A DNA stretch of 64,000 nt, taken from Volvox africanus (Eukaryota; Chlorophyta; Chlorophyceae; Chlamydomonadales; Volvocaceae). Under the pieces are notes generated by a model. It was not told where the DNA came from. It ran no database searches and worked only from the letters and a program-made list of their open reading frames with translations. The position numbers and the translations under genes were made by a program. Location: contig BSDZ01000101.1 of assembly GCA_030268105.1 (NCBI GenBank), forward strand, positions 1,798,001 through 1,862,000. The letters are read 5' to 3'. Position 1 is the stretch's first letter; each line of letters begins with the position of its first letter. Below are positions 1,763-63,289 of this stretch, piece after piece.

Positions 1763-4700
1763 CTTCCCGTGTGAATCCTCAACGTCCTGCACCGCCGCGC
1801 TCTCGCTAACCGTTTTCCCGGCTCATATCTACGCACAGACCGATGACCTCTTCTACCTTGACGATACGAAGTGCTCCATGCCGTAAGTATACCACACGTC
1901 ATTTGGGACGCACGTCTTTGTTGAGGTGCTGCTGAAGGGACAACATGGGCCTGAGCCATGGGGGTGGCGAGGAAAGTAACGGCATTGGCGATAGGCGCAC
2001 GATGAGTGCATGGGTCAGAGAGCCAGGGGGCTGTGTTGGATATGGGACATGTCCAGGTGACAGGGACATGTGTTTTGGGGGTGGGAGCGATCGTGGCTCG
2101 ATCGTTGAGAGGATGGGGGAGGAGTAGGCTGCGGCGTTCAAGGAGGGGTCTTACAAGGGGATCAGGAACGGTTGAAAGGGACTGGACAGAGGCAATCGGA
2201 GATCTCGCGCTTCATCACCCCCTTCGCCACCGCCCAGCCCTGTCTCCGCGCCTCCGCTGCCGACTTGCGACTTACCCACCCTTCTCAGGTATTACTTCTT
2301 CCAAGGCAATGTGGATGATGAAAGCATTTGTGGCGACGAGGTGGGTGTGTGTTTTTGTATGTGTTTGCGGGACCTGGAGCGCGCAACTGGCACCATTTCA
2401 GTTAATCTTCCATCTTTCAAAAGGCATGTTCCATCAACAAAAAAATTCTATTGTAGTCTTTCGTTACTGTAATTGTAGTAGACTAGTCGTTAAATGAAGG
2501 AATTAATGATTATTAATTAATACATAAGCCGACCCAGTACTTTTCCGCATGGGGTGTTTTTCTATGGGAGTACGAAATTCACCAACCGCTTCTGGTTTAG
2601 AGGCTTTCACAAGTCCTCCAGGTCCCAGCTCCCAGGTCCAAAACGAGCACAAACGAGTAAACGATCTGCCCGGATTTCTAAACTAAAGTTAGCCAAAAAG
2701 TATGGTCTTTACATTGAGTTGAATCATTACATTACGTTGTACAGATCCGCCCTACGAATGTGGGCCAGATGGATCTGGACACGACCATCAACTACGGGCG
2801 CAATGGCAGTGTGGTATCCAATGTGGGCCAGATGCTGGTGTTCATGCAGGTACCGGCGGACACGAAGATAAGGTTGGGTTGGAATGGGTTTAGTTCCGTT
2901 CGGTTATAATCCGTTTGACTCGGTTAGATTCGCTTCACTTCGGTTGAGATGGGTTCGGTAGGTGGGAGGTAGCATCGGTTTCGTCAGTATCGGATACGAT
3001 AGGAGGGAAGGGTGAGAAGGCGGCATTGAGGGAATTTTTGTATTGCAAGGATTTGCACGGGATGCGGGGACTATTACCCCCAACCATTGAACCAAACCCC
3101 TCCTCCGCAGATCAACGGACTGCTAACGATGACTGTGAGGCTCAGTTGCCCCTGGCTGGCAGTGATTGACCCGTCGAGGCGGGGGGCGGCGCTGCAGATG
3201 TCTCTGACAGCGCCTAACGGCACAAAGTGGACTCGGTGGATCAATGTCACAGAGACGGGTACGGCATGCTGTGACGATGTACGGTGAAAGCATCAAAAGC
3301 ATAAATATGAAAAATTTGTGCATGTTATGTTTTGGTATGGCGCATGCATACAGAAAGGGAGAAGACGACCTGCTTCTAAAGTCCCCAATTTGAAAGAACG
3401 AACACTAGTACGCCTCATTTACCGTTTTCGTACCGCATGTTGCCGCCATACGCATGTCGTTCAGTTGCTGTGGTTTCTCATCGTAACCCCAACTCCCTTT
3501 CCCCATTGCCCCACCCCTCCCACGCGCGGCCGCGCAGGCTCCCAGTTCGTGAGCTGCGCGTCCTTTTCCGTACAAGTCAAGCAGCTGGACCCGAATATTC
3601 CCGGGGACAATGGCTGTGACGCAAGGCCGTACGTCGCAACCGTGGCGTTCCTTACAGAAACCTACATGGTGGGATGCAACCGTGGGGAGTGAGGGGCGGG
3701 GTTTTAGGTTTTCGGAGCTGATAGGAAACAAAGGACAGCCAGTTAGAGGAGCATCACGGATAGCAAAACGGCGCTTTTTAGACACAATGGACGAGGGGTT
3801 AAGATATATTCGGGTAAAAGTTGCCAGTCCCATGACGCGCACGGTGCTGCTCAGACTCGTTGATACAACTGCCGTACTCCAAGGACGGACGTCCCTCCTC
3901 AATTTTGGCTCATCGTCTTGGGCAACACCTGATAACCCGGGAGCATTCCACATGACCATATGGGATAGCGCGTCCATCCGTATGTCCTAGGTTTTTACTT
4001 GCCATATGTGCCGCCCGTCTAACTACCAACCTGCCTGTCGTACGACCGCAGGGGTATTCATCAGTTGGTGATGACCCTGCCACTTGCAGCGTCAACGACG
4101 TGGCCACGACGGGCACAGGGGTGAGGTCCTTGGGCAGACTGCAAGCGAAATGGGTTTCGGAGCCTGAGCAGCAAAAGCACAACCCCGGTCCGATCAGGGC
4201 CTTGGATTCGATGTTGAGCTTGCCGTAGGGATTACGACGTAATGAATTCCTGCTGACTCATTATACAGCGGCTTAGTTAATCGCAAAGGTTCAGTGAAGC
4301 AGATGTTTCGCAAACGCCACACGCCTGTTGTCTTCACATATACAAAACATCGTATGGTGCCGATTCATATATGAGATGGATGAGTTTCATTTGAGGATCC
4401 TAATCCAGGCGTCATGCCCAGCTACTCTTCTGAAGAACCCCACAAAATGCGGTTGACTGACTTATCTAGGTACTGGATAGCGTGATACAGGATACATGAT
4501 TGTTTCGGGGTGTGTCCTCTCCCTGAGCTGTCGCCGTCCAGGGGTGCAAGCAAGGGCTCTGGGGGCACCAATTTACCCTCGTGTTTGGGTCGAACCTCAT
4601 ATGGGCATTTCTTACGTTGATGCTCATGATGGTTGAAAAGAGCCTAACATGATTCACGAAGAAGGCTGCGAAAACATTGCCGGAAAACATTGTAATCAGC

Positions 4701-7700
4701 CAAACAGGCTAGGCAAGCAAAGTGGGTCACAGTGACGGCCGCAGTGCAAGCGGCGACGCGGACACGCTCATGCGCACTTGTCGCGATCCGCGCTGGCACC
4801 CTGCTCTGCCTTTTGGCTCCGTCCCGCTCCTGTCGATCCTGATGCCGTCGCTGCCGGGGTCGTGACCGTCGCAGGTTTTCTACAGCCTCGTGTATACGCC
4901 AATACAGTTCCGGCCGCCGTCGCCGCAGCCGTTTCCGCCGCTGCTGCCGCCGCCGCCGCCATCACCACCGCGGCCGTTTGTCCCCTTCGCACCTGATGTA
5001 CCTCCGGACCCTCCACCCGCGACGCCGCCGCAAAGTCCTCCGCCGCCGTCGCTGCCGCCGCCACCGTCGCCAGCGCCGCCGCTGCTGCCGCCAGCTCCAA
5101 GCCCTTCACCGCTGCTGCCACCACTGCCGCTAGTGCCACCTGCCTTCCCAGTGCCGCCGTCGCCGCCAAGTCCTCCGCCGCCGCCAATTCCCCCTTCACC
5201 GGCGCCATTGCCGCCTGCACCGCCGCCGCTGATGCCACCGCCACCAGCGCCGCCCTCGCCGCTACCACCCCGGCCATCACCGCCACTGCCGTCACCGCCG
5301 CCGCCATCACCAAAGCCGCCCGTGCCCCCTTCACTGCCGCCACCATCACCGCCACTGCCGCCGTCACCCGTTCCACCGTCACCGCTGCCGCCATCCTCCC
5401 CGCCGACACCGCCGTCACCACCCAGGCCTCCACGGCCGCCGCCGGGGCCGCCGCCTAGTCCGCAACCACCAACGCCGCCACTGCCGCCAGTGCCGTTGCC
5501 ACCTAGTCCACAGCCACCACCTTCACCGCCGCCGCCGTCACCACCGCCTCCGGCGTACCCGCCCATGGTCCCATTCCCGCCGTCACCGAGCCCGTTGCCG
5601 CCGAGCCCAGACCCATCACCGCCGCCACCGCCGCCGCCTTCACCGCCATCGCCTGCGCCGCCTTAGTAAGCTTGTTCCAGCTCATGCACATTCTAAACTC
5701 GCTGCATTATCATTACCGCAACGCTTACGTGTATCTTGGGCAAAGGGCGTGTTTCTGAAATTCAATGAATATGGCCGTAATTATTCTGTCATTGCTATCG
5801 ATTTGAGTTCCATTTATCTATGATATCCTATGCTCCCAACCCCACTCCCACCCTCCATCCCTCACCACCTTCGCAATCATGTTTCCATGATATTTGTCTC
5901 GGAAAAGACAAATTATATTGCTGTTGCCGCCTTTGCATCCCACACAGTCCATCGCCACCATCGCCGCCACCACCGCCGTCACCGTACCCGCCGTCGCCGC
6001 AGCCGCCATCGCCGTCGCCACCTCCGTCGCCGTTCCCGCCATCGCCGCAGCCGCCATCGCCGCCGCCCTCACCGCCCTCACCGCCCATGCCCCCGTCGCC
6101 ATATCCGCCCTCACCGTCGCCGCCGTTGCCGCCATGGCCGCCATCACCTGACCCGCCATCACCCCCCCCACCTGCACCACCACCGTCGCCGCCGAACCCG
6201 CGTCCACCTAAGCCACCAAGTCCGCGGCCGCCCAGACCGCCGCCGCCACCGCGGCCCCCTCCTCCGTCACCGCGGCCGCCACCGTCACCACCGCCATCAC
6301 CGCCATCACCGCCTCCAATTCCCCCTTCACCTGATCCCCCGAGCCCCGATCCGCCATTGCCGTTTCCTCCCAAGCCGCCGCTGCTGCCGTCACCGCCGCA
6401 GCCGCCATCACCGCTGCCCCCAACTCCGTTGCCGCCGTCGCCTCCGCCACCATCGCCGCCGTCGCCACCGCGGCCACCGGCCCCCCCACCGTCGCCATTC
6501 CCGCTGTTCCCGCCACGCAAACCACGCCGGCCGAACCTACCGCCGCGGCCGCCTCCTCCCCCACGGATTCGGTAAGTTCGTAGCTGCTCACCCACGGGTC
6601 GGCACCTACGTTGTTCCCACCGTTGCTATCCACCAGTATCTTTGGGATTTACGACATAAGGAACAGATCTGCTCCCAGTTCCCCTTACGGCTCTGATCGG
6701 ACCTGATTCGTCTGCGAGGCCAGACAGCTGACAACCTTGATCCTCAGGGCACAACCTTTCAGAGCCCTCTTTACCCTTTAGAAGCCGCGTTTGCGCATAC
6801 TGATCCCTATTTTCTTCGCATCCGTATCAGTGTGCCAATGCCGGTAAAATGGTACGTACCGCTGCTTCCGTTACCTGGCGCACGTAACGCATTACTTCAC
6901 ACGTCAGAACATGCGTCTTTGTAGATCTTGATTGGCGGCACTATCTGAATCATTGGTAACGTCTGCGCAGCTTTACTTATCCCCCAGTTGTTGTACCCGC
7001 TCTCTGCCGTGCCGCACAACAGATATCCTGACCCACCATCGCCGCCGCCAGGGCCGCCCAGCCCGCCGGCACCGCCGCCTGAGCCACCATCGCCGCCGCC
7101 GCGTGCGCCGTACATGCCACGTAAGGTTATTATTGCCGGGCGAGAAGGGCGAGAAGCCGCAAAGATGCCCCGAATATATTCCTCGATCAATCCAGTTCAT
7201 GCACTTGTCGCTGCCTTCTGAGTGCTGCACTTCAATCGCCCAAAGGAGCTCATGTCATGTTTGCGCGTGCGTAACAGACCGTGGCATACGACCGCAAATG
7301 GTTACGCCAGTGTCTGCCTCTTAACTGATTCTTTAAAAAAACCGACAAGCAACGGCCTACAACTGATAACTGCAGGACGACCCTGGCCGCCTCCTAGGCC
7401 CCCAAGGCCTCCGCCAAAGCCTCCGAGGCCGCCAGGTGGCGCGCCGTCCGCGCCGCCGCCGCCACCCCCCCCACCCCCGCCGCCCCTGGACGCCGAGCCG
7501 CGGGCGCCGATACAGTCACCCTCGCCGCCGCCAGCACCACTGTCACCGCCAGTGCCGCCACCGTCACCGCCGTCGCCGCCATTTCCTCTGCTCGTGCAGC
7601 CTGGCTGTTTGCACGTCTCGGCGGGAAATGGCAAGATGTACGGCGATGGTGTACTCCTGGATTACGGCAACCTGACGTTGGGGCAGTACGACTCCCACAC

Positions 7701-13700: not shown

Positions 13701-16700
13701 ATGCGTTGTATCGCTTTGCTACTACTCGCTTTCGTTTGAGGTCCGAATATGCTGATGGTGATATGGGGCTTCCCTAAACAGGACATGCCAGGTGAGGCAA
13801 TGGAGGCGGCGGGCGCTGCTGCCGCCGCGGGTGCTGGCACCAGCGCCATGGGTGCTGCGGTAGGTGCCGGCGGCGGCGGCAAACGCCGACGTGTCGTCAG
13901 CTGGGACGGCATCGGCGCCGGCGCCGGCGCTAGCTCCAAGAGTCTTTTCACCCGTTTCTTCGGCAGCATGTTTGGCGGCACAGCAGCCGGTGGCGGCGAC
14001 ATCCACCCGCAGCATGCGGTTCAGGAGCTACCGACGCTCTCGCAATTGGATGAAGAGGCAGCCACTGCATCAGCGGCGGCGGCCGCTGCTGCAGGTGGTG
14101 CCGTCACCGCACGCCGCGGCAGCCGCTTCAGCGGCAGCAACACCTCCCACTCTGGTTCCGGCTCCGGCGGCGCCCCTTTTTCCGCCACGCAAATCGGTAT
14201 CGTACTCAGCCCAGTTGCAGGCGGGGAGAGGACGAGTCACGGGCCCCGCGCCGACGCACTTCTCTCACAAACTGCTGGTTGGGATATGGCAACAGGTGCA
14301 ACAGGCACGGCGGCGACAATGGCGACCACCAGCGGTGGCGGCGGCGGCAAGGTCAGCAGCCTTCCGCCGTTGTTCTTGAAACAAAACCCCGCTTTTAAGT
14401 TGCCGCGAGATGACGACAGCCCTGTTGTCAGTGAGGGCGATGCCGACGGCACAGGCGGCAATGGCACCATTCGGTTTAAGAGACCTGGTGAGGGCATGCA
14501 TGGCGGGCTTGACGACGACGGCGCCGCTGCAGCAGCGGCCGACGGCGCCAGTCTTGCCGCCGCCGGCCACCGCACCGTGCATTTCAACCGACCCGGCGAT
14601 GCTTCGAATGGCGGGCTGCACGAAGATGCGGCTGCTGCTGCCGCTGCCGCAGCGGGCAGCGGCGCCCCCGGCGCGAATGGCAGCCGAACTGTGCGGTTCA
14701 GCCGCCCTGGGAACAATTTTAACGGTGGCCTGGATGACAACGGCGACGCAACAGCCGCTGGCGCAGCGGCAAAGCTTGCCAGCAGCGGCGGCGGGAGGAG
14801 TGTACCGCATTTCAGCCGTCCTGATGGAAGGGACACATCGGGTATGGACTCCCCGGCAGAGGCAGCTCAGGATATACCTCAACTTGATGACAAGAGGCGG
14901 CGATCAGATCTGCCGCCGAATCTTCGAGATTTCCAACGGTACGGCGCTTTGTTGCCAGGTCGCGTCTTCGTGCTCGATCTTTCCTTTACTTCATTTATCC
15001 TTATCCTCTTTTTCCGAAGTAGTTCCGAAGTTCGTTAGTTTTAGCTTGCATACTCCCATGCGGTTCTGGTGTCGTCATCAGTCCTTGTTTGTTTGTTAAT
15101 GCCCCGGTGTCATCATCCGACATATGACACTTCTTTATTCTTGAGAGCGTGTTTCGACGTGTCTAAAGATAAGAGGGAAATAAAGACCCCGTAACAAACA
15201 CCCACGTTTTCCTCCCCCCCCCCGGTTCACTAAGTCCAATCGATGGGTCCTGGGTAAGGTACGAGACAGTTAATTAAGTTGTTTGAAATATATTCTTGAT
15301 GTGTTAGTTGGGGTCACTCGGTTCCTCGGAACTCTTTACCTTAAACCCTTGCCTCATCACACAGACACACACACACAGACACACACACACAGACACACAC
15401 ACACACACACGTGTTCGCTACTCGTTACCCTCTGTCCCCCTGTCTCTCGCCGCATCTCCTACATTTCTTCCACCTCCCCACCAACCCTTCTCTACGCCAA
15501 CCTCCACCACTCCACCCCTCAAGTCCCCCCTTTACTTCCCCTTGCAACACAGACCGGACATGGGCGATCACAACGGCAGCATGGACCCCGAAGCAGCCGC
15601 AGCCGCAGCCGCTGGCCCCACCTCGGCGGCGGTGGCAACCGCAATGCACAGGCACTGGCAAATCAAGTTCGCCAAAAATGTGAGTTCACATTCGTATCGT
15701 GCAACAGGGTAGATACGACGACTAGACAGAGGACTAGACAGGGGACTAGACAGAAGACTAGATAGAGGACTAGATAGAGGGCGGCGTCACTTAGCGGCGG
15801 ATGCGCCTTTGGCATCTTTACGTTGTAAAGACGCGTATTTGGGCGTCTCATTCGGCAAGCTTTAAAACCCGCCTCAAACCCCAAGACGGGTGTGAAGTAT
15901 GTTCTGCAGCTGGCCATGCTTGAATCCAGCCAGCAGATCAGCATGCGTGTGCGTGTTGTGTGGATGTAAGGCCATGGGCATGCATACCCGCCCTGTATAT
16001 ATATGTATATATATATATATATATATGGTTTTACCATAACCCCAACCCATATACAGGGCGGGTATGCGTGTCTATGGCCTTATATAATATATATATATAT
16101 ATATACAGTAATTTCAAATAATAATAAATCTTAAAGATATTTGTATCTGGTTTTTTTCTGATCCTTTTTTGTAGGTAATTCTAATGTTCGTCCACGGTAT
16201 TTCTAATGTTCGTTCGTCATTGCATAGACATAACCAAAGAATCCTAATACCCATGATAGTAATATTACGCTAAAAGTTATAGCATCTAATCTCATTAAAA
16301 TATTTCCATAAAATATTTCTTTAATATTATATCAACTTTTGTCTTGAAATGTAACCTTCTAGTGAGGTTATAGGAAAATCATTTATCCCACAAGGGATAA
16401 ATTATCCCGGAATAATTATTAAGATTGTGCTGATGTTGACTGCTTTACCATGATAAGTAACCCATTTCCTTATTCTGATTCCTGTAGCACCAATTATGGA
16501 TTCTATATTCTATATTTCTGCCATTTTAAACCCAGATGCTACTTTCCCTTGAATTGTAAAAGCATGTGGACGTTAAGTTCTGCAAGAGTTAATATTATCC
16601 ATTTTCCAAGTTGTGTAACGTATAAATTTAAATCTTTGGCCTTATTTGTAGTGTATTATGGGATAAATGACTCTTTGCCCCGGACCATGATTAGTAAATT

Positions 16701-19104
16701 TTCCTCCTCGACCGGTATAAATACCTGGAAACAAATCAGGTTTTAGCAATTCCTCTATATTATGACTTGTTCCGGCGGTTTATACTTCCTTATGCTCAGC
16801 AGAAGATGGTATCGGGCTCAATAGAGTTAAAAACTCTAACCACCTGACCTTCCATTTTTTTTCCCATCTTGATAATTAACAAGACCAGGTAGGGTGATCC
16901 ATTTTATCTATGTTTTTCTTCCTGCCGAATAATTTTTCTATATATTTTTATATAACTTTTAGCTCAACATATGTTGGTCTGCCTTGGTTACGTTGAGCTG
17001 AAAAAGGTGTAGATATCATTAGTCTTAACAATTCACATATATAATTATAAATTATACATATGAATATGTACCAGTACGTTTTCGTAACAAAAACCATTTT
17101 AACGAAAACAAGTAACGAAAAAACATTTTCCGTTACGGTGGTTACAAACTTACAATGGCGAGAAAAGCCAGGGGGGCCTTTTGCAAATCGTTCGACAGGG
17201 TACGGCTCTCTGCTGCCGAACTCGCTCGTTGGTCGTTCGTTCGGGCCCTCACTCACTCCTCGCTCGCTTTACCCTGTCTGACTCTTGGCAGTTTATTTCT
17301 CATATCCTGCCTGACCCGTGAGATAACTACTTCGTATATATGGGAGTATTTATGGACGAATGAGAACTTAGAGTTGATGTATTTTTGGCGCGGACGTTTT
17401 TGTTTTCATTTTGCTCTCCAGGGGGGCCAGGTGTCCTCGCCCCGGTCCTCTCCGTCATTCTGACGTCGGCCCCAGGACCGACCCAACCTGTTATCTGTTT
17501 CCTCTCTCCTTCCTGAAACCAGGATGCCGGAAACGCGCCCGAGGGCGAGGAGGAGGACGTCCAAGGGTCCCTGCAGGAGGGCACGCAAGGCCAGTCGGCT
17601 GGCGGCTCGGTGAGTGGCAGCTGCCTGAATCGTACGTGTGAGACCTTCTCCAAATTTATCGTTCCTTTGTTGTAGCATGTGCCGGCCTTACCTCCTCGTC
17701 CCATTGGCATGGTCTCAGGTCTCATCAGTGTCCTCTTCCTAACCCTCCCTCCTTGACCCCATGTTTGACCCTCTCTGGCTCCAAACACGGACCCCCCCGG
17801 TGGCGAACCGCCGCGCAGCATCCCCACGATAATCGCAACGTACGACAATTTAAATTTGCGCACGACATGCGATCCCGATCCATGCCGCGGGACGAGTTTG
17901 ATGAAGACGTACTGCCAGATGAGGAGAAGAAAGAAGGATTGCCCGAGGGGGCTTCGGAGGAGGTGCGTATGCGTGTGTGTCTGTGTCTGTGTGTGTGTAT
18001 GCGTATGCGTGTCTGTGTGTGTGTCTGTGTGTGTGTGTTTGTCTGTCTGTATGTATGCGTATGCGTGTCTGTGTGTGTGTGTGTGTGTCTGTGTCTGTGA
18101 ATTCCTAAGAGGAAAAGGGAGCGGGTAGAGGTATACCATGCGTGTGCATCTATCGTTTTGTACTTACACACTGGAGGGCGTGTTATACATAGTTATATAT
18201 AAACATATATAATTGATGTGTATGGTTTAAAAAGTGTTATATTATATATCTATGATATAAGATGCTTTGCGGTGGGAAGGTTTGATTTCCTGAAGCAGGC
18301 ATATGTAATATTTAATATATATAATATAAAATATTACATAAGCCTGCTATATATATGTAATATGTAATATATATACATTAGAGTATCTGTGTTATATATT
18401 AAATATTACATAAGCCTGCTTCAGGAAATCAAACCTTCCCACCGCAAAGCACCTTATATTATAGATATATAATATAATATTTTTAAAACCATACACATCA
18501 ATTAAATATATATATATATATAATCAGCCGATATATATATAATATTATATATATATCGGCTGACAGAATCGATGACGACGGCGCTGTCGCCATCCAGTAA
18601 TGTATTTATAACTTTCGACAAATGCAGTCTGTAGTATCATAATAATTATTACGAATTCTAATTCTGACGTTAATTCTCGAGCTTTGAAGAAGGCGACATG
18701 TGTTTTCATATGTATATAGTGACTGGAAGAAAGGGCAAAAGCGGGGTGGTTCGCCGTGTGTGTATGTGGAGGTACAGGTGGTAAGCTTCGTTCCTGATGC
18801 CGTACTGTACCAATGTCGTTCTGTCGCAAAGACATGACCCGATGATGTGTGGTTCGAACCACAGGAGCGCCGCATGTATGCCATGCATCATGCGGCCAGG
18901 GGCCCGATGTACGGCGACGAGAAGATCGGGCCTGTGGATCAGATTGAACTGCAGCGGGAAATGCGGCGCAGGGCCCTTTTGGAGCAGATGAAGAACAGCG
19001 CCTGGACGGGCACTTTCGCACCAGACCCTTCGCCAGATGCGAGTGGGAATGGGAGCGGGATCGAGCGTGTCATCGGACCCAAATCTCCGCTGGGGCCTGT
19101 CTAG
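1763..19104 (+). CDS. Gene A: single-pass membrane HRGP-like receptor/matrix protein
   Basis: Exons read: 1763-1882, 2289-2340, 2745-2849, 3111-3258, 3538-~3688, gap, 4052-4120, 4875-5665, 5948-6571, 7023-7120, 7376-7945, 8330-8370, 8862-9317, 9766-9951, 10082-~10144, 10231-10272, 10789-10914, 11470-11763, 12261-13109, 13782-14938, 15553-15679, 17523-17609, 17819-17962, 18865-19104 (TGA). From 4052 onward the donor and acceptor phases fit and sum to exactly 1,988 codons. Order of parts: Cys-containing ectodomain, Pro-rich HRGP block, globular part with paired Cys, two membrane-near modules, one TM helix, long Ala/Gly-rich cytoplasmic tail, acidic/basic C-terminus. HRGP segments of this kind are extracellular-matrix components in volvocine algae; a matrix-sensing or matrix-anchoring role is inference. 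The junction between ~3688 and 4052 is unresolved. An open stretch at about 3786-3970 may be an exon, but its phase does not fit. Confidence 0.7.
4875..7600 (+). other. Proline-rich (SPP/PPSP) HRGP block of gene A
   Basis: Four exons (4875-5665, 5948-6571, 7023-7120 and the first part of 7376-7945) encode mainly Pro, Ser and short spacers such as SPPPPSP. Splice phases 2, 2 and 1 join these exons in the Pro-rich frame, including a codon split TA|T at the 5665/5948 junction. Such runs are normally hydroxylated and arabinosylated in chlorophycean cell-wall and pherophorin-type proteins, and form stiff rods. The antisense strand shows long Gly-rich open frames that are only the mirror of this composition. 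Confidence 0.85.
9200..11640 (+). other. Two similar membrane-proximal modules of gene A
   Basis: The exon 8862-9317 ends in YITATARFK and the exon 10231-10272 ends in KVRTDITFK. Both break in phase 0 directly after Phe-Lys. Each is followed by an exon that looks like a small folded domain (9766-9951 and 10789-10914), and after each comes another segment with single Cys residues. The first module carries a basic run (AARRRRHLS) followed by a Ser-rich stretch. This arrangement recalls the SEA-like, juxtamembrane repeat modules common in large algal surface proteins, but I cannot assign a named domain from the sequence alone. Confidence 0.45.
11677..11751 (+). other. Transmembrane helix of gene A
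   Basis: Within exon 11470-11763, a Pro/Ala linker leads to an uncharged stretch from Met ([18 protein letters not shown]) through AAAIWYY, and then RRTK as a stop-transfer signal. This is the only clear membrane segment after the signal peptide, so the HRGP part should lie outside the cell and the 12261-19104 exons inside. Confidence 0.8.
14460..14835 (+). repeat. R-F-x-R-P-G repeats in the cytoplasmic tail of gene A
   Basis: Four in-frame copies spaced 36-38 residues apart: TIRFKRPG (about 14465), TVHFNRPG (about 14576), TVRFSRPG (about 14690) and the degenerate [10 protein letters not shown] (about 14803). The first three are each followed by a 'GGL' plus two or three acidic/Asn residues (GGLDDDG, GGLHED, GGLDDNG), then an Ala run. 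The basic core and acidic follow-up are kept while the Ala linkers vary, which points to selection on the motif rather than plain microsatellite growth. Confidence 0.75.
15361..15412. repeat. (CA)n microsatellite
   Basis: ACAC runs broken by single G residues, in the gene A intron 14939-15552. Confidence 0.9.
15967..16086. repeat. Foldback element in an intron of gene A
   Basis: An inverted repeat with arms of about 35 bases (15967-16004 and 16050-16086). Both arms contain the shared core GCATACCCGCCCTGTATAT or its reverse complement, with a (TA)n-rich loop. It sits at the left edge of the AT-rich bacterial-like insert. It may be a MITE-like element or an insertion scar. Confidence 0.6.
16330..16900 (-). 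pseudogene. lipB: Decayed bacterial lipB (octanoyltransferase), Rickettsiales-like
   Basis: Read on the minus strand, broken frames give the LipB signatures in order: an N-terminal piece ([20 protein letters not shown]), [18 protein letters not shown], the family hallmark [18 protein letters not shown], then [18 protein letters not shown] and [15 protein letters not shown] with the catalytic Cys. Several stops and frameshifts interrupt it, and the usual catalytic Lys before the GxxGIRI motif reads as Ile, so it cannot be functional. LipB moves octanoyl groups from acyl carrier protein to lipoate-dependent enzymes. Strong AT bias against GC-richer algal exons, together with the residue pattern, points to an alpha-proteobacterial (rickettsial) source. 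It lies antisense inside the gene A intron 15680-17522. Confidence 0.8.
16960..17045 (-). pseudogene. Possible second bacterial gene remnant
   Basis: A short minus-strand reading, [20 protein letters not shown], lies upstream of the lipB relic and shares its AT-rich composition. The QRNxGRPT ending resembles C-termini of small S4-type RNA-binding proteins, but the fragment is too short to assign. Confidence 0.25.
17185..17340 (+). repeat. Dispersed repeat, copy 1 (partial)
   Basis: Starts near TGCAAATCGTTCGACAGGGT and ends near CCTGACCCGTGAGATAACT. The same sequence occurs in inverse orientation at 54430-54590. It lies directly at the right edge of the bacterial-like insert in the gene A intron. 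The family is not recognised. Confidence 0.7.
17966..18100. repeat. (TG)n / TGCGTA microsatellite
   Basis: Follows directly after the donor at 17962 in gene A, so the start of this intron is almost entirely GT-repeat. Confidence 0.9.
18210..18510. mobile_element. MITE-like foldback element (about 300 bp)
   Basis: Two arms of about 90-95 bases are near-perfect inverse copies (18213-18310 and 18405-18508). Both include GCTTTGCGGTGGGAAGGTTT / AAACCTTCCCACCGCAAAGC and GAAGCAGGC / GCCTGCTTC, with an AT-rich centre. There is no coding capacity. It sits in the gene A intron 17963-18864. A second, short perfect hairpin (GTCAGCCGATATATATA and its inverse) follows at 18523-18563. Confidence 0.75.
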
Positions 19105-35100: not shown

Positions 35101-38100
35101 AAGCCCAATCGTCAGAGACTCTCAATGTTTCGGCCCTGCCTAGAGTGTCATCCATAGTGAAAATACATTCCCCATCATGTCCCTAACGACCGCAGGTCTG
35201 CATGACCTTCGAGCCTCTGTTTGGTATGGAGCACAGCAGCACAGAGAAGGGTGTCACTGTCATCTTCCGAGGGCCCCGTGTCGTGTGTGGAATCAGCACG
35301 TGGCAATATGGGGATGAGGAATTCACGGATGCACATGTAGGGCGGCGCGCCGCTTTGGACGGTGGATACGACATGGCGGCAGGCATGGAGGACGAGAGGG
35401 ACATGTTCGACCCGATGGATGCCGTACTCAGCGGTGGGGTTGGGATGCTGCCGGAGATGCCGCACATGGTGGCCGGCGGCGTTCCCGATGGCCTATCGCC
35501 ACTTCCGGAGAATACTATGCTGAACCAAGGCGTTCCGCCGGCAATGACACTCGGAGGCGCCGAGGGCAGCGCTGGTGGTGGAGGCCATGGGGGTGTTGCC
35601 GCTGGCAATGCAGCGAATGTAATGGTGGACAATGACGGAGACCGTGGTGGAGCATTCGAGCGAGATCGTCTATCATATGCGGCGCATTCCAATCCTCTAT
35701 TTAACTCGGTAGGCGATACCATGCGTCGTGGATCTCCGTACGGCGATGTGGAAGACGTTGGAATTCTCGCCGCCTCCACAACCGTCGGGGCCACAGTCGG
35801 TGCCGATGAGGCCGTACAGCAGACTCTGGATGCGGCTGCCGCCGACGGTGAATTGCCCGAAGAGTTCCCGGCAACCCGTTTCGCCGGGGGCCGGAACAGA
35901 AGGGTGATATCACCTGAGGCGCTAAAAACGTGGCAGTGGCGACAAATGCCGGCACCCCTGCACCGTGCACTGGCGATCTGTGAAAGCGGTCAGGGCGGCT
36001 TTGTCCTTTTAGACGGTGCAACATACAGAGCGTCATCACAGGAGGCCCTCCAGGAGCAATGCATGGTATGGGCGGTGCACATGTATCGTACCTTATCTTT
36101 GCACTATGATGGAAAGTCAGTATGTTGCGGAGTCCAGACGAGCGGAGTCCAGAACGGTCCGCCATTCATTGAAAAAGGCAAAGTAAATAAATTTATGCTG
36201 AAAGCTGTATAGCTGTATCAGAACCAGTATTGCTCAGCAGCCCTGGAATATGTATCCATATGAAGCCCCCCTTTCAACTGCCGCAACAGATTCTACATAT
36301 GGGCGAGTACTTCCTCCGGGGCGTGACGGCTCCCCTGGACCTCTACCTGGCCCTGGACTTCGCCCACTTAGCCCGTCTCGCCCATCTTCGGCCTCTTGCC
36401 AGCGCCGAGCAGCTGAGCCTGGGTCTGCCCGCAGCGCCCGTCAACTCGGCATCCATTTGTTTTTCGCTTGTAGTAGGCATGCAGACTCTGCTGGCTTGGA
36501 ATGGCGAGGTGGCTAAGACGGCGCTAGGGGTGCTGCGAGACGCAGTATTACCAGCGTTGCTTAATTATGGGGGCTACCTGGTGGGTTTGGGGAAGCGTGG
36601 AGTGAGAGCGACATCAAGATGCTCATGTCGGGGACGACGGTGGGGAATAATCTACCCCCCTTGCTTTGCTCGTTTGAAACTGGATGAATTGAAGCGTTGA
36701 TATCCGCAGATACAAACCGTTGTATGTTGTTTGCTGTTGTTGTCTTAAGAGATGTCCTCTTTCGTTCATGTGGCACATTGTTTGTTCATTCTCTTCCGCT
36801 CCCCCTTAGTTTCTTTGCATTCACAGTGTTATATCCCCCTCTCCCTTTGGAACATCTGCCCAGGTTGAGGACGTGGATGGGCTTCTGTTGACGGCCTTCC
36901 CTAACAGCCGCTGCGCACTGGGTTGGGCCCTAGAATGCCAAGATGAGGCGAGGCGGCTCGACTGGTTAGTGTCCGGGCGTTGGGGAACGGTGGGCTGGTT
37001 AGCAGGCTTCGAATTGGGAGATTTCCGTTCTCATGATCGTTCTCCTTAAATTTTTTATTGACTCCTGGTACGGATGCTGAGGTTAATTTTAGTTTGTTTC
37101 TTACAATAGTTTACTGTATCTTTTAAGAATAGTGATTAGAGATAAATAAGCATAATGAAAAGAAGCCTAGAGCAAAGCAAAGAAGCTGTTGTGGTAGAAC
37201 CTGTAGCTACAATAGCAAAAGTGTCCCCTAGATTAGGAATATACTGTGGTGGCGGCTTTGAAAAATTAGTAACAGAAAGTAGTATCTTTGTTGATAAAAG
37301 CCTATATATTGAAGAAATAATAAATAGCAAAGATGAGGTAACCCTTATAACTATGCCAAGACGTTGGGGTAAATCGTCAAATCTTGAGATGCTTAAGAAG
37401 TTTCTTGAGCTTCAAGTTGACAAGAGTGGAAAAGTGGTTAAATATAATCTGCTACGAGTTACTTCTTTGTTCAATAAATATTGTTCGTATATTGCATTAA
37501 ACCTCGAAGCATCACCTTCTGCTTTAGCTATTACCTCTACTTTATACCCCTCCGATTCCTCAAGGATTTTAGCTGCTTCTCCCCTTGCTTTCGGTAAAAT
37601 ATTATTTCTGTAAGACTGAGCTTCATGTGCTATCGGTTGTGATGATTCAATAGCTAGTTTTACTGATGATTCCTTAAATTCCGTAGAATAGATTTTTTGC
37701 TTTTGTTCGGACATTTCGTTACTCTTTTTGGGTTCATATTCACTTACCTGTCCGGTTTATTGTAGCCATTATTAATTCCAGCAGCTACAAAAACATAAGA
37801 AGCACAAACTGCACAAAGGATGATTGGAACAATAGCTGTAAAAGTTGCCTGATTATTGCTTAATTTTTTACAAAAAAAATACCATTAAATATACCAGAAA
37901 TTAAAGGCAAAAAGATAATCAATTAGTTAGTCTCTTTGCCCTCCCTGAATAATCCAGATCACTCACACCAATAGCACCGCCTCCATCGAAGAAGTCGCGT
38001 GTCTATGCCTCCACTACTACCTCTTAGTATACATTACCATCTGGTGGTATATCCCGTTTCCCTCTCCAATACCACCATCGCTACCATCGTGACCTCTTGA

Positions 38101-41100
38101 ACCCCACTCGCAGGCCTGACGAGCTTCTGAGCCATGCTCTGGGTGAGCCAGTATATATAGACGATGAGTTGGGGCCAGACGCGGAAGATGAGGATGGCAC
38201 CGGTCAAGGCGACCATGGTGGTCACGCTTCGCGGTTGCAGAATACCGGCGGTAGAGGCGGAAGCGGCGACGCCTCTGGTGTTAACCCCCGGAGGCATCTT
38301 GTTTTCCGGTGAGATGTAACTAGGCTGTTCATGACTGTCTTCCCGGTTCTTGTCGCTTCTTTCCCACTTATGCCATGCTCTCGCGGTTCCCCTGGGGCCT
38401 GGGACATATTTTAAGCACGGCCCCGTGGCATTCCTTACCTTTTTAACATTAAACCATGAACATATGGACGCTAATACATGTGCCTCTCGTTCACAAGCAA
38501 TTCTTTTTGCAAGTGGGTGATCCCGCTATGTTCCGCTTTCATCCATGATCGGCATGCAGGGGGCTCCGAATAAAAAGCGGCTTGGACTGTGGGGACGTGT
38601 TGGCCCGAGTGCATGCTACTACCGGTCGTATGACTTACCGGGGACGCGTCATGAACCGTGCGGCGCGCATCGCGGGCATGGCGACGGCTGGACAGGCGAG
38701 TGGTTGCGTACAATCGCGCCAAGTGCTTCCTACAGCGGCCCTCATCGTCCAGCAGCTGGGTTCTCTATTGCCACTTTTGCCAGCCCTGCTTTTTTCCTTA
38801 ATCGGTTGATGTTTGAGTGCAACAATCTCATTCTCTGGGTGTAACCTGAAGCTGCACGAGGAGGCGCCCGGAAATACTATTAAGATCAGGGGATGCCGCT
38901 GTCTAAGTCCTCCAGTGTATCCTATGGCTTCGGATCGTTTCCTTTTATTTTCTGTTTTCCGCCATCTTTTGTTGTTTCTGTTTCTGTCCCCTACACTGCC
39001 TACACAGGTTCTATGCTCCCGTGGGTTATGGGATAACAGCGGCTTGGCAGTGGCGCCCGACCTTTGTCAACAGGCGCTCGCGGTGGGCGAGAGTCTGGGC
39101 GAGGTGCAGCTCAAGGGGCTATCTTCCAAGATGGAGGTCATCAACTGCATGTGAGTCCTTCCATAGTAGAGTCCAATATTGTTCTCCTACTTTGCTTCAC
39201 AAAGAAACAAACACAGTCCGCTCGCAATTATGCTGGTCTTCACGTCTTCACGTGTTTCCTAATCCCTGCCGCAATCCTTCCTGCTCCTCTTCCATCCCCC
39301 CCTCCATTGCCAATAGCCGCATTCTGCGGTCAGAAATGTACCCTGTGGCGCACGAGGCAGCCGTGGACCTTCCGCCGATGTACCCCTGTCAACCCGGCGG
39401 CCCGGATTACAACGACCAAGCGCTACACATCGACCCCGATGGCTATGTGGCGGAGAACACGTCCACGGACTCTGGGGCCGGTCACGACGGTGGCGACGGC
39501 GATGGCGTTACAGTTGGCGAAGGTGGAGCGCGCGGCTCTGCCATCGAAGCTTCTCCGACCGTCCGTATGCAGGCCGTACCACTGGTTTCAGATCATAAAT
39601 TGAGCTCCAGTTATGTTGACAGTGTAGCAACTGTCAGGGCAGCAGCAGCCGTGGTAGGTGCTGCTGCCGCCGGCGCCATCGGTGTCATGGAAAAGCCTGC
39701 TGTGCTCAGCTCCAATGACCCGGCTGCAGCTCCGGCTATCGCAGCCGCAGCTTCAGCGGGTGAGGTGAAGTTCCTTGGTCCGGGGGCTGCGCCGGTGGCA
39801 GCGGCGGCAGCTATTTTAGATCCCAGCGGTGCCGCTACCGACCGCACTAACCGCACCAGCCAAACGAGCTTTCCCAAAGCCCAGGAAGCCCCACGCGGCC
39901 AGACCTTGGCGACGTCCCGGCAGCTAAATGCAAAAAACAGCCCAACTGGTACGTCCGCCAGCTTGGCGGCTGCACTCGCTGCAGCTCGCATCCGGCGAGC
40001 GAGACAGATGCATAACAACCGCTTTATGAATTCCAGCGGCTTTGGCATTGCTCGGGGGAATGGCGTCGCGATGACTGCAGCACTACAGGCAGAGGACGAT
40101 GAAGACGACATAGCGGATCGGCTTGTGGCGGGCTATAGCTCTAACGGTAGTATGGGCGGAAGCGGCGATGGCAGCGACAGGGGCAGCGATGGCTGCAGGG
40201 GGTCGCCTGAGCGGCGCTCTGTCACAGTAAACGGAACGGCCGGTGTAGCAGCACTGCACGGTATGCTCCGCCGCCAGCGCCCAACGGGCGCTACGACCGC
40301 CGGCCAGTCCGGTCTCGCCAGTGCGGTTGGGTTTAGCAGCATCACACCGGCATTGGGAAGTACGGCCAGCACTGCCGCTGCCGGCGCTGTTACAGCTGGT
40401 GGCGTGCCCAAGGGACATCTGGCCACGACGGCAGCAGCTAATTTCAGAAAAGCACTTCGCGCCGTGAGGCGGTCGATCCTGGATGATTCTGGTAACGCCA
40501 GTGGCAGCGGCAGCTGCAGTGAAACCTCTGCCAGTGACGGCGATGGGCGTGCGGGCGGTGGGATGCTAGGATCTCCCTCCCTGGCATCCGTTGCTGGGGC
40601 CGATGGCTGTCCGAGGCTCCGTCGTCCACCGCCCCGGCGTCGGAGCGAGGTAGCTAAGACTTCTGCTTCTGCTGCAGCGACTGCAGTGGCTGGGGCAAGT
40701 GCTAGCGGCGTCCGCCTGTTCAATCGGTTACGCAGCCTCGCTGCTGGTCGCGAGGGTGTCGGCAGGGATCACGTTGTCGGGATTCTTGATGGTTTTCAGG
40801 ACGCCGACAGAGGGGAGGAAAACGACATAAGCTTCCAGCCTATGCCTTCCGCCAACTCAGAGTTCTTCCCATCGCGGAACGGCTCGCAGATGCTGTCGAA
40901 AGCGCGGTCACCCTTCCGGGGTGCTGGCAACGCACAAGCCAGATTGCCATCCTTGCAGCTAAGTGCACTTCCACCAAGCGCTGGCGGTGAGACCTCCAAT
41001 CAGACCTTCGCAAACAGCGCTGCCGCCAGCGGCGGGGACGGTGATCGTGTAACTGTCGGCAGAGGCGGCTTTGCCCGTTCCAGCAGCCGGCTTGGGGGCA

Positions 41101-61036: not shown

Positions 61037-61510
61037 GGAACTGTCGTATTTATATCGAGTGCCGGTAATCTTTTGTAGGGCCGCTTATTACTATTGCTGT
61101 CACGATCACTGGTCAGCTGTGCTGTTCCTTTTTCATGTATTTGAGGCTTTTCCTCTCAGGGCTGGCACGTGATTTTGGAGGTTAAGGCGGCCTTCCCCTC
61201 ACTGAAGCTATCGAATGTTTCGCTCACCAATTATTACCTGGATATCGTGCCACGTACTGTTGCAGCAGTCGGGGGCAACCATACGACTATACACTGGCTG
61301 GGCAAGGCCATCCTAATAGCTGTTACGAGGTCCAGGCAGTGATGCATGGTGTATTGTGAAGCACCCGCTTCATGCTGTTTGTCTCCTCTTCTTGTCAAAT
61401 TTCTATCTATCTACTACTCTTCCCATCAGGGATGTATGCATGTCTTGTATTCAGCATGGTTGTCCGGGGATCATGTCTTGGGAGCCGGGCACTGCAGCTC
61501 TTTAACGGAT

Positions 61511-61760
<250 letters not shown>

Positions 61761-61761
61761 G

Positions 61762-63289
61762 CACATCCATTTGCTAGGCTATTGCCACGGCCACCATATC
61801 TGATGGGTGATCCAAAACACGATTAAAAAACCATATCAGATAAGTTGGTATGGTACAATTCCGTAGTAGAGTACATGAAACTTGCCGGCATGATTCATGT
61901 AAGTAATTTTAAAATCTGCCTGCAAGGAGTCACTAGCAAGTGGTTTGACAGCCTGCGCGGTACTACCTGATATAAGGTGCTACCTTATGTTGTATTACGG
62001 CTCGATTATCGTCGATGCGTCAATCGCTGCGACTGACAAGACGATCGCTGACCCATAATTGAACGCATTGTGACCATTAATGTATCTGTATATAATTCAT
62101 AATCCTGCATTGATAAATATGCAAGATCGATATTATACATGTGGCACTGCCAACATAACCAATATTATGATAACTGATGGATGTGCAGATTAAGCCGGCA
62201 TATGTAGCTGTTTAGCAAAAATTGAAATAATTCATTAAGTAAATAATATTTGCTATAGTATTACTTAAATGTTTGCATGATCGATGCATAAGTGTGAGAA
62301 GTGTGACTTCAGGTGCGGTTATCACGATAAGACGCATCACAGAATAATCATATAGAGGCGCGCTTAGACTCACACTAATTAATACTGATATCTACACCAT
62401 GGTTACGAAGGTATAAGCGTAATGGTGTAAGATATGAATATAGCGACGACCATGACGGTTAAGCTACACAACTGAATATTGATATTCGGTCATTCGCACT
62501 GCATAAATGCCGGGAAGGCTTCATATTGATAACATACAGTGTGCAAATATCGGTGATACGTTTGCTGGGTTTTACCACACTTGCGGATCTGGGATCTGGT
62601 GTGATATGTACCACGTACCGCCGATATCACGACCATTATATCGTACCGATATCGTATCAGACATGCGAGGATGGCTGGACAACGTAAGCTTTTCACGAGC
62701 TCTAATCGGACAATCATCAATATTATTGTGTGAGCTTAACTATTCGTGGAGTTTATGTTCGTCAGCGCGAGGGATACAATAGCCAACACAGTGGCGTGAG
62801 TGCAACCAGCACAACCAGCACAAGCACTAGGAGGTTGTGCAGCGTGATGGTTCGGACGGAGACTCCGCTGCGTCCGAAATGGACTTGAGGGCCAGAGAGC
62901 ACAGTGTTACCTCGGAGCACGCAATTTTTAGCCGAGCAGAATTCCTCCGTATCCAGGCTATGACTGAACGGGAATTCACATTAAATGCGGCAGGTAAAGC
63001 TGATAGCTCCAATTCTCATCACTCCATCTATGCATCACCACATACATCATTCTTTAATCACAAGATTATGGCAAACAGCCCATTTGATACTAGTGCTGTA
63101 TTTGTCCTGCCTAAAACAAACAATTTTGAAAAGATTACAATAAGGTATGACCTTGCTCTGTGAGTATCCAAAAGGAACTCAACTATTCACTATTCCTACT
63201 GAGGAAGGTGGTAGAAAATATAATAATACAAACACAACGATTCAAGTGTGGTATGACCACCAAAACAACCTCGTCTCCGGGTGGCTGAA
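61762..63289. other. Intergenic, AT-rich
   Basis: No recognised gene. A 108-codon frame at 62837-63163 has an acidic start and Ser/His-rich middle. It precedes the copia-like protease fragment and could be a gag remnant, but it has no zinc knuckle. Confidence 0.35.

Follow-up and report, generated by a model that had tools for sequence, protein, structure and literature searches.

How did fragments of several rickettsial genes come to lie directly against one another inside an intron of a nuclear gene? The initial annotation of the window (the whole 64,000-nucleotide stretch analysed) described three such fragments: an AAA-ATPase-like start, an hflK end and an IS3 transposase start. It left two explanations side by side, a donor genome already rearranged by mobile elements and several fragments ligated during repair. 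The donors and junctions of the fragments were compared with rickettsial genomes and with the rest of the host genome.

Composition of the block in the host intron

The host intron occupies positions 36965-38113 on the plus strand. As read from the sequence, it starts with GTTAGT, ends with CGCAG and rejoins a tryptophan codon split as TG and G, the split codon already mentioned in the initial annotation. A bacterial block of approximately 885 bp of AT-rich DNA lies inside it and consists of at least five abutting pieces. The G+C content was 57% (measured from position 36968) and 50% in the two outer parts of the intron and 34% in the inner block. The gene bearing the intron is a probable class III nucleotide cyclase; the name is given as probable because the spliced stretch around the intron scored 14.4 bits against PF00211, under the Pfam cut-off of 21.9. 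Seven long frames of the window gave no Pfam match, and the window gave no Rfam match. A 341-aa frame of the window, compared with 8,000 scored candidates, had no match among them. The contig carrying the window in the host assembly is 3.06 Mb long.

Piece 1 (~37039-37085, no strand assigned) is a plasmid stretch of about 47 bp with approximate ends. It matched Megaera polyxenophila pPCS148 (AP017966.1) at 89.6% identity (E 4e-6), in an intergenic part with no annotated plasmid gene under the match. Piece 2 (~37086-37438, plus strand) contains the upstream stretch and the first ~94 codons of an AAA-ATPase_like gene, with its ATG at 37158, and its match to PF09820 (E 4.7e-11) exceeded the Pfam cut-off. 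Positions 37086-37157 have no donor match of their own and were assigned to piece 2 by assumption. Ten of 58 relatives of Megaira NIES-296 matched this piece, the best through a 660-aa frame with 77% identity over 95 residues. Plasmid genes of Ca. Bandiella (72.8% nucleotide identity) and Megaera are more distant relatives of piece 2 than this frame. No donor was found in six Megaira or rickettsial genomes in a search run without a positive control; 15 plasmid records matched, all below 60% identity, phages gave no match, and viral contigs gave one relative at 51%.

Piece 3 (37439-37626, minus strand) is an internal part of hflK, 89.9% identical over 188 bases to positions 1177728-1177915 of Megaira NIES-296, where the donor frame was named hflK by NCBIfam. 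Piece 5 (37769-~37924, minus strand) is the start of nuoL, with a right end somewhere within 37924-37929. It showed 91.9% identity over 161 aligned bases to Megaira 1378521-1378679, in a frame named NADH-quinone oxidoreductase subunit L by NCBIfam. On the chromosome of 'Candidatus Megaira' NIES-296, these two donor places, both at 90-92% identity, are separated by ~200 kb. Chance is excluded for the hflK and nuoL matches, which had E values of 5e-63 and 2e-53, respectively. Across 15 block shuffles of three host stretches, a total of one match appeared, with an E value of 0.007.

Piece 4 (37625-37768, minus strand) covers the left end of an IS3-type element together with the beginning of its transposase. 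It was 97-98% identical to five host places, three of which are near-identical copies on one contig, and 73% identical to an IS copy of Megaira. The frame of the Megaira copy was recognised as an IS3 family transposase at 56.6 bits, below the model's cut-off for the whole protein. The AAA-ATPase-like and transposase starts of the initial annotation were recovered on the strands given, and so was hflK, but not as a gene end, since the piece stops 35 codons before the end of the 359-codon frame. The count of three was too low, as the nuoL and plasmid pieces had been overlooked. The matches to the Megaira chromosome and plasmid place sequence of a specific bacterial lineage within a host chromosome.

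A second insertion, the lipB relic proposed earlier at about 20 kb from the block, also proved real. It is unbroken (16223-17035, minus strand), 84.7% identical to Megaira 554515-555331, and includes the whole lipB frame, named by NCBIfam, and the end of the neighbouring frame. It fits a separate insertion because its donor place is far from those of the other pieces. Two further patches of the window, at 18001-18500 and 61501-62500, are AT-rich (32-37% G+C) and had no match to the Megaira chromosome, the former also none among plasmids. Positions 2395-2521 were 72.7% identical over 128 bases to Megaira 719726-719852, a match that may reflect either an old insertion or a conserved gene of the host.

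Junctions and mosaics at other host loci

At their junction, pieces 3 and 4 have two bases (AT) in common, and pieces 4 and 5 have none. The in-frame run from transposase into hflK, to which the initial annotation drew attention, exists, but it is a chance outcome of a junction with two common bases. Piece 4 ends 5 bp before the element's own end and is cut on its other side within the transposase, so that neither junction lies at an intact IS end, the position expected of transposition. Host copies of the IS in three distinct contexts outside the window extend by CATCA past the window's junction and then diverge. Because the IS piece is truncated at both ends, transposition made neither of its junctions. 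Among 15 host matches to the block, the window alone matched over its full length.

Stretches of 10 kb around other partial host matches were compared with the whole NIES-296 chromosome. The best example of a mosaic was at locus L072 (C77:1541001-1551000), where 23 matches of 41-145 bp, scattered over the Megaira chromosome, were listed within positions 3733-6707 (2,975 bp). Many of them abut or overlap by a few bases. Identities were 85-95% in 19 of the 23 listed matches and below 80% in the other four, and two of these four have an overlap of over 40 bases with another match. Some 20 pieces with donor places scattered around the whole Megaira chromosome are thus packed into 3 kb, and their source genes include tuf, glyA, atpA, ftsH and secD. 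A second Megaira-like genome gave 31 matches distributed over 22 contigs, including alternative matches to one stretch. The two genomes together covered 1,912 of the 2,975 bp, and the remaining 1,063 bp had no donor in either. Megaera plasmids added IS256 pieces at ~95-98%; most of 1,899 plasmid records matched the locus weakly, and those listed did so through a recombinase gene.

Mosaic structure is a feature of some loci and not of every locus. Six pieces were found at L075, four at L067 and three at L068, while L069 and L070 had two or three each, some of them weak, and the three pieces of L073 were spread over 5 kb. A single match was found at each of L065, L066 and L074, and none to the NIES-296 chromosome at L071. 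Four pieces lie at C13:3742828-3745554 and three at C75:4786689-4787587, both given here by coordinates only, and at each place two pieces meet to the base. Abutment of at least two non-contiguous donor fragments, the arrangement that defines a complex insert, was found for pieces 3-5 of the window and at L072, L075 and L067. Pieces of hflK also occur at L067, and pieces of nuoL at L068, with other neighbours than in the window. At L068 (G000:C27:1248001-1258000), three bacterial pieces including nuoL lie at 4735-4889 between exon-like stretches, perhaps as a second mosaic intron.

To describe the joins, 15 inner junctions were read from a set that drew on 20 fragments, leaving out weak or non-adjacent ones and the L068 and L069 pairs. 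Three had 1-6 unmatched bases, two were unplaceable, and 10 were placed. At least two common bases were present in seven of the 10 placed junctions, with a mean of 2.2. When Megaira DNA is joined bluntly at random, the mean is 0.79, and 19.5% of the joins have two or more common bases. The excess had a binomial probability of 0.0007 in this small, hand-picked sample. With 2 bp and 0 bp in the window, the junctions are of the blunt or short-microhomology type found at numts and nupts.

Origin of the block

We put at roughly 85% the probability that fragments of a degraded Megaira-like endosymbiont were joined together, and into a break in the intron, by host end joining. Endosymbionts breaking down in the cell would supply the DNA fragments. 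At least five short non-contiguous fragments, from chromosome, plasmid and insertion sequence, would be ligated together by host end joining, and the ligated block would enter the break. Each mosaic would have formed in one repair event. The intron may be older than its insert, which would be tolerated because the intron is spliced out. The pieces themselves are relics and probably have no function. Of the two explanations in the initial annotation, ligation during repair is the one supported by the cuts in the IS, by the same donor genes elsewhere with other neighbours, and by mosaics across the genome.

The other of these explanations, in which a donor bacterium already had the genes side by side through mobile-element rearrangement and passed them on in one contiguous transfer, is unlikely. 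In its favour, IS elements abound in the plasmids and genomes of Rickettsiales, as seen among annotated neighbours, and piece 4 is itself an IS. However, at the junctions of that piece the IS lacks both its end and the interior of its transposase. None of the window junctions was seen in the Megaira genomes searched, and the pieces matched separately in five of the six genomes. Furthermore, mosaics of ~20 pieces of housekeeping genes within 3 kb, such as that of L072, are no viable donor arrangement.

Slightly less probable still is a stepwise history, in which the pieces were inserted successively at one place, or deletions afterwards fragmented what had been a longer insert. The pieces do differ in identity to Megaira, from ~77% in protein to 92% in DNA, and repeated insertion at one place has been discussed for organelle inserts in the sections of PMC6215612 used here. 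However, no host DNA separates the abutting pieces, which lie in both orientations and derive from donor places far apart, and deletion by itself cannot reorder pieces.

It is very improbable that the block reflects a misassembly or contaminating DNA of a living symbiont: related algae can carry such bacteria, according to the part of PMC4324946 drawn on, but the five Megaira stretches compared with the host (88 kb) matched inside large host contigs with no symbiont chromosome seen, the largest match in these 88 kb was ~1.2 kb apart from two full 23S rRNA copies, identities ranged widely from 71 to 100%, some pieces sit in host tandem arrays, and, should the host be V. africanus TH, the assembly was built on ~197-fold long reads and screened for bacterial contigs, as stated in the available portion of PMC10291315. 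Transfer as mRNA is also unlikely, as the block contains an IS end and intergenic plasmid DNA.

Known systems and extent in the host genome

In Chlamydomonas insertional mutants, junk fragments originate from lysed cells. These 'junk fragments' lie beside the cassettes, as reported in the excerpt of PMC10760936 available, and resemble the present case in that green-algal repair adds stray short DNA beside an insertion. They differ in belonging to experimental transformation, whereas here bacterial DNA was acquired in nature.

Close models for the end-joining reading are plant, yeast and human complex numts, nupts and numins, which in the sections of Portugez et al. 2018 (PMC6215612) consulted also combine fragments from different places and orientations in one nuclear locus. 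Their junctions are blunt or have 1-7 common bases, which was taken there as end joining. The donor in those cases is an organelle of the cell, whereas the present donor is a bacterium, a facultative endosymbiont carrying plasmids and IS elements. The present mosaics are further set apart by pieces of mostly ~40-190 bp, up to ~20 of them in 3 kb.

Rickettsial sequences are held by the nuclear genome of Volvox carteri as well (Kawafune et al. 2015, PMC4324946). According to the parts of that report available, this is likewise Megaira-like (hydra group) DNA in a volvocine nuclear genome, in an alga without a living symbiont, and a 16S piece adjoins a murB piece there although the two are apart in the bacterium. 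The region described there spans 9 kb, contains four gene pieces and came from a screen with a threshold of E <= 1e-50, whereas here many far shorter pieces come from sources across the whole bacterial genome. The 768-bp murB piece of the V. carteri EVE locus was not found in the host, as none of the 19 host matches to Megaira 360001-368000 fell within murB, and this speaks against V. carteri EVE as the host. The literature on Volvox africanus and Rickettsia includes PMC5882469. No report of bacterial mosaics of many short pieces was found in the literature searched, a scope outside which most subscription journals and preprints fell. Rickettsial inserts in V. carteri and mosaic organelle inserts are thus already known, and the fine-grained bacterial form looks new.

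The number of such pieces was estimated by querying five Megaira stretches (88 kb) against the host assembly (140,993,249 bp in 126 contigs). Three stretches (48 kb) were used, and two (40 kb), dominated by a multi-copy mobile region or by rRNA and repeats, were excluded. A tandem array with 16 copies entered the count as a single place, and seven of the 19 host hits of one stretch, which lie in one multi-copy gene, were kept. The 48 kb gave 64 host places with a median length of 107 bp and a range of 40-795 bp (63 measured). Scaling to 1,448 kb yields ~1,900 scraps, a figure inflated by multi-copy genes and deflated by the scoring of 40 of 95 candidates for one stretch. This suggests, very roughly, that the host genome carries one to two thousand Megaira scraps. 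Among the 64 places, six non-collinear pairs lay within 3 kb, whereas uniform placement would give 0.09. A single multi-copy gene is involved in two of these pairs and a tRNA in a third.

As controls, 10.2 kb of a Rickettsia-labelled MAG gave three host matches (69-80%), and an 8.4-kb stretch of an alphaproteobacterial MAG produced 13, with identities of 88-98% for some of them. Every one of these falls in the 16S rRNA gene of the stretch, one beginning 9 bases before it, and none elsewhere. Matches to rRNA are therefore not specific to Megaira, because this control matched through its 16S rRNA.

A wider reading is offered tentatively, at somewhat less than even odds. The whole genome of a dying endosymbiont may shower the nucleus as fragments of ~40-190 bp, from which end joining would build chromothripsis-like mosaics in single events. 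The alga would so carry its one to two thousand scraps, some in introns, and a lost facultative symbiont would, in bursts, have contributed notably to new DNA in introns and between genes. Transfer from symbiont to nucleus is usually pictured as that of genes or long stretches, whereas much of what was found here is sub-gene pieces joined by the dozen. The effects of symbiont death, fragment size and repair pathway on gene transfer thereby become testable. Strict match thresholds in screens would miss most such DNA. The scraps also preserve a record of a symbiont that was not seen in the assembly, including its chromosome, plasmids and insertion sequences.

Several longer or repeated Megaira-like stretches were observed in the same searches. 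At G000:C14:175311-178556 and G000:C25:424949-427978, the host is 97-98% identical to Megaira over 3.0-3.2 kb, spanning the whole 23S rRNA gene, and both matches are far longer and closer than most scraps. A rickettsial IS stretch occurs three times at G000:C3:6976172-7024994, with spacings of ~22 and 24 kb, and its copies are nearly identical, at 99.9-100% over 3.1 kb. A 94-bp Megaira-like piece recurs 16 times, ~3 kb apart, at G000:C109:1428690-1473495, where bacterial DNA has been amplified within a host tandem array. Another Megaira-like piece of 170-214 bp (77-81%) occupies 13 places at G000:C36:69752-202648, often ~11 kb apart, and occurs twice on C69.
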